From a virus: DNA of 24,612 bases. Location: the IMG/VR virus record IMGVR_UViG_3300032246_000344, positions 1 to 24,612 of that record. The stretch is one strand, 5' to 3'. The position numbers and the translations under genes are program-made. Each line of letters begins with the position of its first letter. The stretch's first letter is position 1. This document shows positions 960-24,355 of this stretch, piece after piece. The notes below the pieces were generated by a model that saw nothing but the letters and a program-made list of their open reading frames with translations, ran no database searches and was not told the DNA's origin.

Positions 960-3900
960 ATGGCATTAACATCACCCGGCGTAGAAGTCACAATCATTGA
1001 CCAAAGCCAATACTTACCAGCTCCAGGCGGCACTGTACCGCTTATTGTTTTCGCAACAGCACAGAATAAAGCTAATCCGTCTGGTACAGGCGTTGCTGCC
1101 GGTACTACTGCGGCTAATGCAGGTAAATTATATCAAATTACAAGTCAAAAAGACTTGGTAGATTTCTATGGTGTACCATTCTTCTACACAACAACTGCTG
1201 GAACACCTATCCAGGGTTACGAATTAAACGAGTATGGCTTATTAGCAGCTTACTCAGCATTGGGTATTACCAATCGTGTTTATACATTACGTGCTGATAT
1301 CAATTTAGCTTCATTAGTGGGTCAAGTTGGTCGTCCATCTGGTGCACCTGCAAACAATGATTGGTGGCTAGATACAACTAAAACTACATGGGGTATTTTT
1401 ACATTCAATGCAGTAACAGGTACATTCTCAGCAGTAACTCCACTAGTTATAACTGATGCCGCGTATCTAAATAACGGTGCTCCAATAAATAGTTTAGGTA
1501 ATATTGGTGATTATGCTATCAATGCTACTGTGCAAGCAAATTCTGAGTATCAACAATACTATTACAAAACAACAAGTAATGTTTGGACAGTTTTAGGAAG
1601 TAGTACTTGGCAAAAACAATGGCCTACTGTGCAAGGTACTGAATCTAATCCTGCATTAACTGCCGGTGACACATTTAATCTTAGTTTAAATGGTCAATGG
1701 TCTGTTACTATCACAGTTCCAGATGCTGGCGGTGGCGTTGGTTCTGTTTCTGGTGTAGCAAACACAATTAATGCATTAGGTTTTACTTGGGTTACGGCTT
1801 CAGTAACGTCAGGCAAATTAAATATTTTATCTAGTCAACCATCCGTTTCTGGCAATCAATATATAGGTCTTACTGAGGGAAGTGGTAGTACAGCGTTAGC
1901 TGATATGGGAATAACCGCAGGTAATTACTATCAGCCTCAAGTTGTATATGGTACTTCAGCAGAAATGCCACTATGGACAAGTAGTCAATTATATCCTCAC
2001 CCAACTGGGTCAGTATGGATTAAAGCAAGCAATGCCGGTCTTGGATTAAACCCAGTAGTATCACAATACAATTCAATTACTGGTTCATGGAAAACAAAAA
2101 ATGTCACATTGGCAACAAATGATTGGGGTGCAAGTAGTCAAATAGATTCAACCGGCGGTCAAGCAATAGCAGTTGACACCGTATATGCAGAATATGACAG
2201 TGAAAATAATTACGTAAATAGAACTAATCCTGTATATTTATGGACAAGAGAAGTAAGTGGTCCAACAGTAGCTACTGGTACAACAACTGATTTTTCTATT
2301 AATTTGAATTTTAGTTTATCAACTGCATCTTTATATGTTCAAACAAGTTTACCAAATAGTTCTTCATTATCAAGTACTTACACCGTAACAATTGTTGATA
2401 ATTGCACTCCTACGCAGTTTGTTACTGCTTGGTTAGCAGCAGGTATACCTTATACTAATGCTTTAGTAACTACTGACGGTGCCGTTCAATTAATCAACAC
2501 TGTAGGCGGAGAAATTGTAATGAACGACTTTATTACTACAGCTGGTGCAAATCAAGGATTCTCTAGTGGTATTTTAACACAAGCTGGTTTTATTAAAAAT
2601 TCTACTGATTTTGTTAAGTATGGCTCTGCTCTTGGCGGTGGAGTATGTGACTTTTATGGAATAACTACTACTAATGTTACTGGTACTGGATCTGGATTAA
2701 CTGTTGAAGTTAGTATTGAAGGTAATAGTATATATGCTATTACCGGTGATGGTGCAACTATTGGTGGAACAGGTTATGCTGTAGGTAATCAAGTAAAAGT
2801 AAGCGGTGCTAAATTAGGCGGAACTACTCCTGCTAATGATCTTGTTCTAAGAGTAGTTTCAGTAAATGGAAGTGGTACAGTTGGTGCAGTAACTTTTGTT
2901 AGTGGTTTTTCTAATACACTGTACAATACACAAATTAGTAATTGGCTTCCGATACCATTTACTGCAAATCAAGGTGCTCCAGTAGCAGCTCCTGCAAACG
3001 GTACAAATTGGTTCTGGAGTGTTGTTGATCAAGTAGACATCATGGTTCAAGCTGATGGAATGTGGAACGGTTACAAAAATGTAAATTATGATAATCAGGG
3101 TTTCCCAACACCATCTGGTGTAAATGCAACAAATCCAACAGGTCCAATTATTGCTGCAACTGAGCCAACTACTCAAACTGACGGTACAGCTTTAGTATAC
3201 GGCGACTTGTGGATTGACACTAGTGATTTAGAAATGTATCCAATGATTAGTCGTTGGCAATATGATTCTGCTAGTATGATGGATATGTGGGTAAGACTTG
3301 ATATTACTGACCAAACAAGTAGTAAAGGTGTATTGTTTGCTGATGCACGTTGGGCAACTAATGGTGACGTAAACGTAGTTGATGATCCTATTCCAAGCAT
3401 CACAAGTTTGTTAACTAGTGATTACTTAGACTTAGATGCTCCTAGTCCAACACTATACCCAACAGGTATGTTGTTATTCAACACACGCCGTTCAGGTTAC
3501 AATGTTAAAGAGTATCAAGCAAATTATTTCAGTGGTACTAATTTCCCTGACGAGCCAAGCTACCCAAATCAAACAGCTACTTGGTTAAGCGTTAGTGGAT
3601 TGAAAGCAAATGGTAGTCCATATATGGGTCGCCAAGCACAACGTAACATGGTTGTAAAATCATTACGTTCAGCAATTGACACTAACTATGACATTCGTGA
3701 TGAAGATAACTTCTTTAACTTGATGGCTACTCCTGGTTATCCAGAGGCTCAACCTAACATGGTTGTATTGAATGCTGATCGCGGCGAGACAGGTTATATC
3801 TTGGGTGATACTCCAATGAGATTACCATCAGATGCTACAGCAATTCAAGCATGGGCAACTAATGCAGCAGGTGCAACAGCAACTGGCGAAGAAGGTTTAG

Positions 3901-4568
3901 TAACACGTAATACATACTTAGGCTTGTTCTATCCAAGTGGTATCACAAGTGACCTAAGCGGTAACTTAGTTGCTGTCCCTCCAAGTCACATGATGTTACG
4001 TACATTCATCAGAAATGATAACATTGCTTATCCTTGGTTAGCAGCAGCAGGTACACGTAGAGGTAACATTGACAATGCTACAAACATTGGTTATATTGAT
4101 AATACAACCGGTGAGTTCATAACTACCAAAACACGTATTGGTATTCGTGATGTATTGTATATCAACTTCATCAATCCTTTAGTATTCTTTACTGGCATTG
4201 GCTTGTTGAATTATGGTAACAAAACAAGTTACAACAGTTCAAGTGCATTAGATAGAGTTAACGTTGCACGACTAATTGCTTACGTTCGTAGACAATTAAC
4301 ATTGGCAGCAAGACCGTTTGTATTTGAACCTAACGATGCGTTGACACGTAATCAAATTCAAGGTGTAATTCAAACATTGATGGTGGATTTAGTTGCTAAA
4401 CGCGGTATCTATGACTATTTGGTAATCTGTGACGAAAGTAACAACACACCAGCTAGAATAGATAGAAACGAACTTTGGGTTGACGTTGCACTTGAACCAG
4501 TGAAAGCTGCTGAATTTATTTACGTCCCGGTTCGTGTTCTAAACACAGGTGAGATAGCAGCATTATAA
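960..4568 (+). CDS. 18: Contractile tail sheath protein (T4 gp18-like), unusually long
   Basis: This 1202-aa protein begins MALTSPGVEVTIIDQSQY, the typical sheath N-terminus. It ends in a conserved C-terminal domain (about residues 800-1202) with NVARLIAYVRRQLTLAARPF, FEPND and a final PVRVLNTGEI strand, as in T4 gp18. Sheath subunits form the outer contractile tube that drives injection. T4 gp18 is 659 aa; the extra length here is an insertion of roughly residues 120-790 made of Ser/Thr/Gly-rich beta modules. One (about 235-325) ends in an ALADMGITAG motif, and another (about 575-650) has the GTGSGLTVEV and GYAVGNQVKVSG pattern seen in phage fibre repeats. Tryptophan motifs WWLDTT and LWIDTSD flank the insert. 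The start has an AAAGG site 9 bases upstream. The gene ends in tandem in-frame stops TAA-TAG. It sits alone between two terminators. Confidence 0.93.
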   Translation: MALTSPGVEVTIIDQSQYLPAPGGTVPLIVFATAQNKANPSGTGVAAGTTAANAGKLYQITSQKDLVDFYGVPFFYTTTAGTPIQGYELNEYGLLAAYSALGITNRVYTLRADINLASLVGQVGRPSGAPANNDWWLDTTKTTWGIFTFNAVTGTFSAVTPLVITDAAYLNNGAPINSLGNIGDYAINATVQANSEYQQYYYKTTSNVWTVLGSSTWQKQWPTVQGTESNPALTAGDTFNLSLNGQWSVTITVPDAGGGVGSVSGVANTINALGFTWVTASVTSGKLNILSSQPSVSGNQYIGLTEGSGSTALADMGITAGNYYQPQVVYGTSAEMPLWTSSQLYPHPTGSVWIKASNAGLGLNPVVSQYNSITGSWKTKNVTLATNDWGASSQIDSTGGQAIAVDTVYAEYDSENNYVNRTNPVYLWTREVSGPTVATGTTTDFSINLNFSLSTASLYVQTSLPNSSSLSSTYTVTIVDNCTPTQFVTAWLAAGIPYTNALVTTDGAVQLINTVGGEIVMNDFITTAGANQGFSSGILTQAGFIKNSTDFVKYGSALGGGVCDFYGITTTNVTGTGSGLTVEVSIEGNSIYAITGDGATIGGTGYAVGNQVKVSGAKLGGTTPANDLVLRVVSVNGSGTVGAVTFVSGFSNTLYNTQISNWLPIPFTANQGAPVAAPANGTNWFWSVVDQVDIMVQADGMWNGYKNVNYDNQGFPTPSGVNATNPTGPIIAATEPTTQTDGTALVYGDLWIDTSDLEMYPMISRWQYDSASMMDMWVRLDITDQTSSKGVLFADARWATNGDVNVVDDPIPSITSLLTSDYLDLDAPSPTLYPTGMLLFNTRRSGYNVKEYQANYFSGTNFPDEPSYPNQTATWLSVSGLKANGSPYMGRQAQRNMVVKSLRSAIDTNYDIRDEDNFFNLMATPGYPEAQPNMVVLNADRGETGYILGDTPMRLPSDATAIQAWATNAAGATATGEEGLVTRNTYLGLFYPSGITSDLSGNLVAVPPSHMMLRTFIRNDNIAYPWLAAAGTRRGNIDNATNIGYIDNTTGEFITTKTRIGIRDVLYINFINPLVFFTGIGLLNYGNKTSYNSSSALDRVNVARLIAYVRRQLTLAARPFVFEPNDALTRNQIQGVIQTLMVDLVAKRGIYDYLVICDESNNTPARIDRNELWVDVALEPVKAAEFIYVPVRVLNTGEIAAL

Positions 4569-22196: not shown

Positions 22197-22460
22197 ATGG
22201 AACATCCATTCTTAGACAAGAAGAAACTGTCCGAAAAGACATTAGAAGAAATTCAAACCAGTTTAACTGATTTGATGAATAAACTAACCTTTGCCAGTCG
22301 CACAGGCAACAGACCATTAATCAATCAACTTCATATGGTAATTGAAACTTATCGCAACGAAGCTAGCAAAAAACTTGACGAGGTAATGAAAAAACAAAAC
22401 CTTCAAGGTCAAGTATCAATACAAAAAGAGGATCAAATTGGCAACAAAAATAGAACGTGA
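22197..22460 (+). CDS. Small helical protein of unknown function
   Basis: This 87-aa charged protein is almost entirely helical: KKLSEKTLEEIQTSLTDLMN, then LTFASRTGNRPLINQLHMVI and ETYRNEASKKLDEVMKKQ, ending in a polar tail. This is the plan of a small coiled-coil or helical hairpin. Short proteins of similar plan occur near structural genes of T4-like cyanophages (from memory). There is no Shine-Dalgarno site; the ATG follows a late-promoter octamer by 5 bases. Its last 23 bases overlap the next gene in another frame, suggesting coupled translation. Function is unknown. Confidence 0.7.
   Translation: MEHPFLDKKKLSEKTLEEIQTSLTDLMNKLTFASRTGNRPLINQLHMVIETYRNEASKKLDEVMKKQNLQGQVSIQKEDQIGNKNRT
22427..22440 (+). 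promoter_or_regulatory. Ribosome-binding site and TTG start of the 200-aa gene
   Basis: AGAGG (22427-22431) stands 6 bases before TTG (22438-22440), a good Shine-Dalgarno distance. The next in-frame ATG (22504) is 22 codons downstream, inside a conserved-looking segment, so TTG is the better start. Confidence 0.65.
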
Positions 22461-23040
22461 ATTTGCATTTCAAGCTGCTGTTTATTTTGAAGGTGAATTT
22501 TTAATGACCGTGTATGAACTTGCATTAAAAATGGAAGTTGACACAGCATCTATTAAAGAACAAAATATAGCAATGGACAGGATACATTATTTCTTACATG
22601 AATGTTTGGGTAATAGTATCTTTGTACAAGAAACTGAAAAGAAAGCTATAGAAAAATATATGCAGGCTGATATTAAAGTCTGCACATTGCCAGATGAGCC
22701 ATACGATCAAATCATAACCATATTGTTATTACTTAAACTAAACGCAATAACAGAAGGCAAACTGCATATCACTGACATTTCACTTATGTCTGGATTAAGT
22801 GATGATGTTAAATTTGTATATGATGTAGAAACTGTAGCTAGTCACCCATTTGGTAATAAGGGATGGTGGGCTGAGTCATCTACTAATATATCAGACATAA
22901 CCAAATCTAATAAAAAGGATAAAATTGTTAGATTGGTAAAACAACATAGTGATTGGTCAAGTGTTGGATTAGATTGGGAACAAAAAGAATATGCCACTAC
23001 TGAAATTATTTTTAGTAATGACCATGAAAAACAACCATAA
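22438..23040 (+). CDS. Conserved T4-like phage protein of unknown function
   Basis: This 200-aa protein, starting at TTG, begins with a strand-rich region (IEREFAFQAAVYFEGEFLMT, VYELALKM), then helices QNIAMDRIHYFLHECLGNSI and EKKAIEKYMQADIKV. A central segment, TLPDEPYDQIITILLLLKLN, is followed by a second half with GLSDDVKFVYDVE, GNKGWWAES and HSDWSSVGLDWEQKE. The LPDEPYDQI plus KLNAI block and the GWW motif resemble a family of unannotated proteins in marine T4-like phages (from memory). No catalytic motif, membrane helix or signal peptide is clear; the LLLLKL run is an amphipathic helix in context rather than a membrane span. The gene overlaps the preceding one by 23 bases and is followed by a 38-base gap holding a sigma70-like promoter. 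Confidence 0.75.
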   Translation: MATKIEREFAFQAAVYFEGEFLMTVYELALKMEVDTASIKEQNIAMDRIHYFLHECLGNSIFVQETEKKAIEKYMQADIKVCTLPDEPYDQIITILLLLKLNAITEGKLHITDISLMSGLSDDVKFVYDVETVASHPFGNKGWWAESSTNISDITKSNKKDKIVRLVKQHSDWSSVGLDWEQKEYATTEIIFSNDHEKQP

Positions 23041-23043
23041 TTG

Positions 23044-23072
23044 TTGATTTACATAAAAATCTATGTTAGAAT
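23044..23072 (+). promoter_or_regulatory. Sigma70-like (early-type) promoter before the polymerase-like gene
   Basis: TTGATT (23044-23049) and TAGAAT (23067-23072) are separated by exactly 17 bases, the optimal host sigma70 arrangement. Transcription would start near 23079, the A of the ATG, predicting a leaderless mRNA. No late octamer is present here, unlike most other promoters in the window. Confidence 0.55.
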
Positions 23073-23080
23073 ACATAGAT
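23059..23080. promoter_or_regulatory. Inverted repeat around the -10 box, possible operator
   Basis: ATCTATGT (23059-23066) and ACATAGAT (23073-23080) are perfect 8-base inverted repeats. The 6-base spacer is exactly the putative -10 hexamer TAGAAT, and the right arm enters the start codon. It may be a repressor or activator site. Confidence 0.5.
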
Positions 23081-23588
23081 GAAAACTGACAATTACGGAC
23101 AAATCATTCTCACAGAAAATGACCTCTGTGATTTATATATGCGTGACCCGTCACGTACAATCAAAAACTGTCTAGTTGATAAACAAATAAGTTTGGACAA
23201 CATCTTTTTATCAGATGAGAATCTGCCCACATTAGTAGAATATGTTGATAACAAAATGTCAACACAAGAGTTTGATGAACACAATCAATCACAATGGCAA
23301 ATGCCCGTAGAATATTATGAGATGGACATTGCTAAATGGGTATTAGACCAATGTAAGAATGAAGAAGAATTACAACGTGCAGGCGATGAACTATTAAAAT
23401 TTCATGATAGGAACATGTTCCCGTTATTAAAGTATTTAAAGTATCTTGTTGATACTATGCGTAGAAATAATATAGTATGGGGTGTTGGTCGTGGTAGTAG
23501 TGTAGCAAGCTATGTATTGTATTTGATTGGAATTCATCGTATAAATAGTTTGTACTATCAATTATCGGTAGACGAATTCTTAAAATAA
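23079..23588 (+). CDS. Orphan DNA polymerase III alpha (family C) palm-like fragment
   Basis: In this 169-aa protein the last 70 or so residues follow the family C polymerase palm: a helix LLKFHDRNMFPLLKYLKYLV, then DTMRRNNIVWGVGRGSSVAS and YVLYLIGIHRINSLYYQLS, closing at VDEFLK. These correspond to the GRGSAAGS, LGIT and FERFLN motifs of bacterial DnaE/PolC. In the full enzymes the catalytic aspartates (PDIDxDF) come just after FERFLN; here the gene stops at that point, so no polymerase activity is expected. The first 100 residues include DLYMRDPSRTIKNCLV and QWQMPVEYYEMDIAKW and are not recognised as polymerase. It might modulate or mimic the host replicase (inference). It has its own sigma70-like promoter, and the stop overlaps the next ribosome-binding site. 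Confidence 0.7.
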   Translation: MKTDNYGQIILTENDLCDLYMRDPSRTIKNCLVDKQISLDNIFLSDENLPTLVEYVDNKMSTQEFDEHNQSQWQMPVEYYEMDIAKWVLDQCKNEEELQRAGDELLKFHDRNMFPLLKYLKYLVDTMRRNNIVWGVGRGSSVASYVLYLIGIHRINSLYYQLSVDEFLK

Positions 23589-23598
23589 GGAGAACAAA

Positions 23599-23973
23599 AT
23601 GAGCGTATATAGATCCGCAATGGGAAAAAGTGTTGATATGGGTGCTATTGTAGCAAAAAATGAAAAAACTAGGGCTGTCGGGAATGTAAAAAATCTCAAT
23701 GCTCGTGGTGATACAATTGATGCACTGGGTAGAGTTGTCAAGCCCGTAACTGAAAAAGTAAATAAAGCATACAGTAAAACAGTAGGCAATCGTTCAGCAC
23801 AAGTTGTTAAAAAACCACCACAACAAATACAACCTGACATTCCAGTAGCACCTAAGGTTGATGTATCTGAACTATTGCCAGAAGAATTAGAACTAGAAGA
23901 ATCATTAGAAGATGATTTGGAAATTGAAAAAATCAAACAAGAAGAATTACAGAAAGCCTCAAAGAAGAAATAA
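23599..23973 (+). CDS. Small conserved T4-like phage protein of unknown function
   Basis: This is a 124-aa protein. The first 70 residues are basic and look conserved: MSVYRSAMGKSVDMGAIVAK, KTRAVGNVKNLNARGDTID, VVKPVTEKVNKAY and VGNRSAQVVKK. The last 40 form an acidic, probably disordered tail with ELLPEELELEESLEDD and a Lys-rich end. The N-terminal pattern is familiar from unannotated proteins of T4-like cyanophages (from memory). The strong AAGGAG (23587-23592), 6 bases before the ATG, is the best ribosome-binding site in this part of the window, so good expression is likely. It lies one base before the cochaperonin gene. Function is unknown; the bipolar charge would suit a DNA- or capsid-associated protein. 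Confidence 0.72.
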   Translation: MSVYRSAMGKSVDMGAIVAKNEKTRAVGNVKNLNARGDTIDALGRVVKPVTEKVNKAYSKTVGNRSAQVVKKPPQQIQPDIPVAPKVDVSELLPEELELEESLEDDLEIEKIKQEELQKASKKK

Positions 23974-23974
23974 T

Positions 23975-24355
23975 ATGGAAGAAAAGAAATTAGCATTTGA
24001 ACCGCATCGTTTTAACAAAAGCCAATTCAAGCCAATTGGCGCCCATATCATAGTATGTGATATGGATTTTGATGTTAGAATATTGAGTAGCGGTATTCTA
24101 TTACCTAATGATGATATGAAAAGTGCAGGTATTCGCCCTCGCTGGGGGAAGATTTATGCTATCGGTTCTGCTAACACGGACCCAGAATATCAGATTGGTA
24201 AATGGATTATGATTAGTCATGGTCGTTGGACTCGCGGTATAGATATCGAGGACGAAGAAGGACCAAAGACTATTCGTAGAGTGGATCCAGCAGATATTTT
24301 ACTTATATCTGATGAGAAATTAAATGATGAGACATTTAGTGATAAGGTATATTAA
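23975..24355 (+). CDS. 31: GroES-like cochaperonin (T4 gp31-like)
   Basis: This 126-aa protein has a GroES fold signature: an initial strand FKPIGAHIIVCDMD (18-31), a mobile-loop region VRILSSGILLPNDDMKSAGI (34-53), then PRWGKIYAIG (55-64), GKWIMISHGRWTRGIDIE and a final RRVDPADILLISDE strand. T4 gp31 (111 aa) replaces GroES on the host GroEL to fold the major capsid protein; the SSGILLPND loop is the GroEL-binding segment. The ATG at 23975 is chosen because an upstream in-frame ATG (23912) lies in the coding region of the previous gene and would add a basic extension foreign to the family. The start follows the previous stop by one base (TAATATG). It is expected to act in cytoplasmic head assembly. 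Confidence 0.83.
   Translation: MEEKKLAFEPHRFNKSQFKPIGAHIIVCDMDFDVRILSSGILLPNDDMKSAGIRPRWGKIYAIGSANTDPEYQIGKWIMISHGRWTRGIDIEDEEGPKTIRRVDPADILLISDEKLNDETFSDKVY

Follow-up and report, generated by a model that had tools for sequence, protein, structure and literature searches.

The 24.6-kb viral fragment analysed here (IMG/VR virus record IMGVR_UViG_3300032246_000344, positions 1 to 24,612; hereafter the window) contains an intact open reading frame of 169 codons that is well supported as the N-terminal half (N-half) of a split family C DNA polymerase core, related to the alpha subunit of bacterial DNA polymerase III (Pol III alpha; DnaE/PolC). We consider it likely that this gene encodes the deoxynucleoside triphosphate (dNTP)-binding half of a minimal polymerase that is made as two proteins and assembles into one active site, the second protein (C-half) being encoded by a distant gene in relatives of the window; judging from sequence and structural models, the N-half very probably works as part of such a two-piece enzyme. 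A split two-gene arrangement was already described in 2021, and the window gene is a further example of it, to which the present analysis adds the exact cut site, the clamp-loader and exonuclease neighbourhoods, the presence of both halves in a 141-kb phage and a conserved promoter whose -10 box lies 6 nt from the ATG.

The N-half consists of an N-terminal part of its own (approximately residues 1-72), followed by a family C palm segment with the GRGSS loop and the end EFLK*. Residues 90-168 match positions 16-94 of the 260 positions of PF07733, the NTPase domain of bacterial Pol III alpha (E 1.5e-8, 35 bits, above the curated cut-off of 23.9 bits), and phrog_11127, annotated as 'DNA polymerase', matches over the full length (E 2.5e-39). 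The order GRGSS-LIGI-DEFLK, from which the original prediction had recognized a family C palm fragment, is accompanied by a family C profile match, the absence of which would have refuted that prediction. The frame also ends before the catalytic aspartates as predicted, the stop following DEFLK where the PDIDxDF motif of DnaE would begin. Homologues are found by tblastn in 63 phage records, including Atu_ph07, SCTP-2 and PA5oct-like, RaK2-like and 121Q-like phages, and at least 583 loci match in IMG/VR; GRGSS is invariant in an alignment of 68 homologues. Every one of 103 environmental homologues checked has the same end point (EFLK*), 35-36 residues past the start of GxGRGS and before the catalytic aspartates, and none of them combines aspartates and GRGSS in one chain as full-length DnaE/PolC does. 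Nonsynonymous substitution rates (dN 0.04-0.07) set against synonymous ones (dS 0.6-1.1) between the window and close relatives give a dN/dS of about 0.06-0.09, indicating that the N-half is under purifying selection. Residues 1-72 (window 23079-23294) lie outside the DnaE match, have no family or fold match and are not covered by the structural matches described below; they could act as a stand-in for a missing DnaE part.

In ten related genomes, the N-half is the sole match to PF07733, and it was a weak match to the fingers domain (PF17657) that led to the C-half, gp16 of Escherichia phage 121Q. This protein starts with ...RTDIDIDFKDS and carries HNSGVH, KVDIL and IRPGK. In relatives, the C-half starts with the motif that is missing from the N-half (SDIDIDF) and extends to the end of the fingers, closing with FKKSHAxAYA plus a helix; we take FKKSHAxAYA to be the counterpart of the FNKSHA motif of DnaE. 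C-half homologues occur in 63 phage records, in the relatives of the window G001, G002, G003 and G005, and in at least 549 IMG/VR loci, the N-unit corresponding to phrog_11127 and the C-unit to phrog_11778. Across 63 aligned sequences the invariant positions are D6, D8, D10, H37, G40, K69, D71, R139, K142, F167 and H171, which include all three catalytic carboxylates and the palm lysine, and the substitution rates of the C-half are dN 0.06 and dS 0.6. Only about 30 residues separate DxDxD from HxxG, so the thumb is missing, and 203 residues span approximately 395 of DnaE. A tail resembling a clamp-binding motif (DPFKLFS at the end of the protein of Paride) was also considered, and this reading was dropped as such a tail is absent in 121Q and others. 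The C-half sits near primase and helicase genes, and a gene for a PF16473 3'-5' exonuclease lies directly ahead of it, often overlapping, in 30 of 67 environmental loci examined by BLAST (e.g., L088:1450-2618, minus strand) and slightly further upstream in 16 more; this close and often overlapping order suggests that the polymerase and proofreading parts are translationally coupled.

Since a phmmer search of the N-half against PDB gives a best E of only 0.83, structure comparison was needed. The N-half alone is predicted with a mean predicted local distance difference test (pLDDT) score of 88.3 and the C-half of relative L166 with 90.5, and the best Foldseek matches are exclusively DnaE/PolC in both cases (17 for the N-half and 11 for the C-half). 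Residues 73-169 of the N-half superpose on E. coli alpha 278-393 (4jom, Z 10.8, root-mean-square deviation (rmsd) 2.6, 94 aligned; VIA-align) and on M. tuberculosis 307-413 (5lew, Z 11.8), while residues 1-203 of the C-half superpose on E. coli alpha 397-791 (2hnh, Z 7.5, rmsd 4.2, 195 aligned; VIA-align), Taq 458-848 (3e0d, Z 9.3), M. tuberculosis 417-818 and PolC 967-1312. The C-half Z-scores of 6-9 are moderate, unrelated chains in the same list reaching about 3 or less. On Taq, the N-half reaches residue 455 and the C-half starts from 458; the two halves tile the polymerase, with only about three residues left between them.

The two halves also largely share their distribution, 58 records being common to both among the 60 records listed per half. 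The exceptions are mostly explained: outside the shared listing, the C-half is nonetheless present in Slicko01 and the N-half in CM1, Slickus01 is a near twin of Slicko01 in the N-half, and PP728206, listed for one half only, is a 109-kb record. The genes are far apart (~30 kb in 121Q, ~11 kb in Slicko01 and ~53 kb in G005), and genomes below 200 kb can have the pair too: Alishewanella phage Slicko01 (OQ508956) has both halves in a circular non-jumbo genome of 141 kb. Across 102 N-half and 80 C-half loci, there is no fused or full-length form and no locus with both halves side by side; in particular, a full-length homologue with the same N-terminus, which would make the window gene a mere truncation, does not occur among them. 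A split by an intein or intron was considered and rejected, as the junctions show no sign of either (the N-half ends EFLK* and the C-half begins about five residues before DIDID).

That the halves assemble and polymerise is our inference from their tiling, their co-occurrence and the residues conserved in them. In the assembled enzyme, the GRGSS loop and the first helices of the palm would come from the N-half, and the fingers, the DxDxD strand and the third catalytic aspartate (KxD) from the C-half. Non-covalent binding between the two would be expected, given that the cut passes through the core of the palm and that neither an intein nor an intron is seen. Once assembled, they would form a polymerase active site alongside the phage family B replicase, possibly acting together with the 3'-5' exonuclease encoded beside the C-half, in repair, gap filling or synthesis of one strand. 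More tentatively, with a chance somewhat short of even, the two unlinked genes would yield a two-chain polymerase with one active site and no thumb that, with the adjacent exonuclease, constitutes a second proofreading-capable polymerase beside the family B replicase. The original prediction had correctly assumed that phages of this kind use a family B polymerase, which is present in nine of nine related records tested. In three phages, Atu_ph07 (W01:212336-213688), Slicko01 (W05:3529-5033) and Paride (W02:88906-92683), the family B matches fall in two separate open frames, and the main replicase appears to be split as well.

Several observations weigh against a functional two-piece polymerase. 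Neither half contains the thumb, PHP, clamp-binding or OB parts of DnaE, leaving DNA binding and processivity unexplained. The C-half matches PF17657 only at E 0.007-0.045, below the cut-off, so its assignment to family C rests on motifs and predicted structure. The window itself, being a fragment of only 24.6 kb, holds no match to the C-half, which was likewise not found in the IMG/VR records G004, G006 and G008 (212-289 kb), although these may be incomplete genomes, and no experimental study of the split polymerase was found in the literature searched. The lack of thumb and clamp-binding parts, together with the family B polymerase in all nine records and the location of the N-half in a clamp-loader gene neighbourhood, would also fit a complex that keeps the fold and does not synthesize DNA. 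Such a complex would bind dNTPs as a subunit of the family B replisome with a regulatory or structural task, for instance close to the clamp loader. We regard this as unlikely, since a merely structural role does not demand that the carboxylates and palm lysine of the C-half be invariant across all 63 sequences.

Two further explanations start from the original prediction, which saw the fragment as an orphan with no obvious enzymatic use. An orphan it is not, and the lack of enzymatic use is not supported: relatives have a second gene for the remaining palm and the fingers, in which the catalytic residues are conserved. That the N-half acts alone as a decoy, competing for a partner of the host or phage replicase, would agree with its confident fold in isolation (pLDDT 88) and its own promoter, but is very improbable given that a C-half gene exists and co-occurs in the same phages, and that the N-half cut matches the C-half start to within a few residues. 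Least credible of all is that a captured dnaE gene has been decaying or, as the original prediction had it, has left a relic that gained a new role: the short length and the lack of catalytic aspartates are what such a relic would show, whereas the low dN/dS, the number of matching loci (at least 583), the identical end point in 103 of 103 homologues, the conserved promoter and the co-occurring C-half all speak for a maintained gene.

The promoter that the original prediction had placed before the gene, in an otherwise late region, is borne out as a sigma70-like site within a region of structural genes, and its position is conserved in homologues (Table 1). Single matches to the motif are common by chance (40 observed vs 33.7 expected), but the position of this one, and in most the 6-nt spacing to the ATG, is kept across 19 aligned sequences, in homologues down to 61% protein identity. 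Over ~2.6 Mb of related loci, this motif peaks sharply 6 nt before the ATG of longer open reading frames on the coding strand (139 cases, as opposed to 29 at 5 nt and 26 at 7 nt, and none at 5-7 nt on the other strand), many of these loci being related and hence not independent events. It also precedes the genes for DnaJ, for a 166-residue protein and for a CC-H-motif protein of ~325 residues downstream of the C-half (loci L001-L028 and L091-L245). Because the ATG lies only 6 nt past the -10 box, given the usual distance to a start site, the N-half transcript is probably leaderless, as other transcripts from this promoter class apparently are; a literature search on leaderless genes in these phages found nothing relevant.

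Table 1 Features at and around the N-half gene, in window positions.
Feature	Position	Strand	Basis
Upstream neighbour, ~200 aa, start codon uncertain	22438-23040	+	no family match
Sigma70-type extended -10 promoter, TTGATT-17-TAGAAT, TG before -10, 6 nt ahead of ATG	23044-23072	+	motif scan, homologue alignment
N-half of split Pol III alpha-like polymerase, 169 aa, ATG start	23079-23588	+	open reading frame, profile matches, structure model
GRGSS codons (residues 137-141), dNTP-side loop of palm	23487-23501	+	alignment; coordinates counted from residue numbers
Downstream neighbour, 124 aa, phrog_14844 (unknown function), part of conserved gene order	23599-23973	+	profile match
GroES-like head-morphogenesis co-chaperonin (phrog_931), conserved neighbour	23975-24355	+	profile match
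Start of next gene, cut by window end; AAA+ clamp-loader gene follows in close relative L004	24356-24610	+	

Upstream of the N-half, the window encodes virion structure and lysis proteins (sheath, tube, head closure and endolysin). Downstream, distant phages have a small gene, a GroES-like gene and, slightly further, a gp44-type clamp loader, and the same order is found in L004, which is close to the window and in which an AAA+ protein and a DnaJ protein are identified. The tail sheath gene (window 960-4568, phrog_10581) is very long, with 1202 aa, and its Pfam sheath C-terminal domain is found only at the end.

The closest known system is the phage-specific minimal Pol III alpha of group 2.2 jumbo phages, which consists of two proteins from distant genes, is found together with a family B polymerase and was suggested to reconstitute an enzyme, Atu_ph07 being named as a member of the group (Iyer et al. 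2021, PMC7824862); in an earlier study of phage CBB, the N-half was called a truncated alpha subunit (PMC5259590). The window gene is likewise a stand-alone N-unit with a family C NTP-binding palm segment, and its relatives have both a distant C-unit gene with the metal-binding aspartates and fingers and, in all nine records tested, a family B polymerase. Nothing essential differs, except that the lineage of the window is environmental, that in many loci the C-half gene of its relatives adjoins a PF16473 exonuclease gene or overlaps with it, and that a non-jumbo phage also has both halves. Compared with bacterial DnaE/PolC, the two halves jointly cover the palm and fingers fold and the catalytic motifs, as two chains and without PHP, thumb, clamp-binding and OB/C-terminal parts. 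Cyanobacterial DnaE is split by a trans-splicing intein and is thus also a family C polymerase from two genes, but the phage cut site differs and no intein pieces are present at the phage junction ends.

If the halves assemble, a polymerase active site would be built from two separately encoded proteins, to our knowledge the smallest family C core. The pair would then allow a direct test of the proposal (PMC7824862) that such polymerases, in their minimal split form, are similar to what the bacterial replicase was at an early stage. Hundreds of environmental T4-like phages would then carry two unrelated kinds of DNA polymerase.
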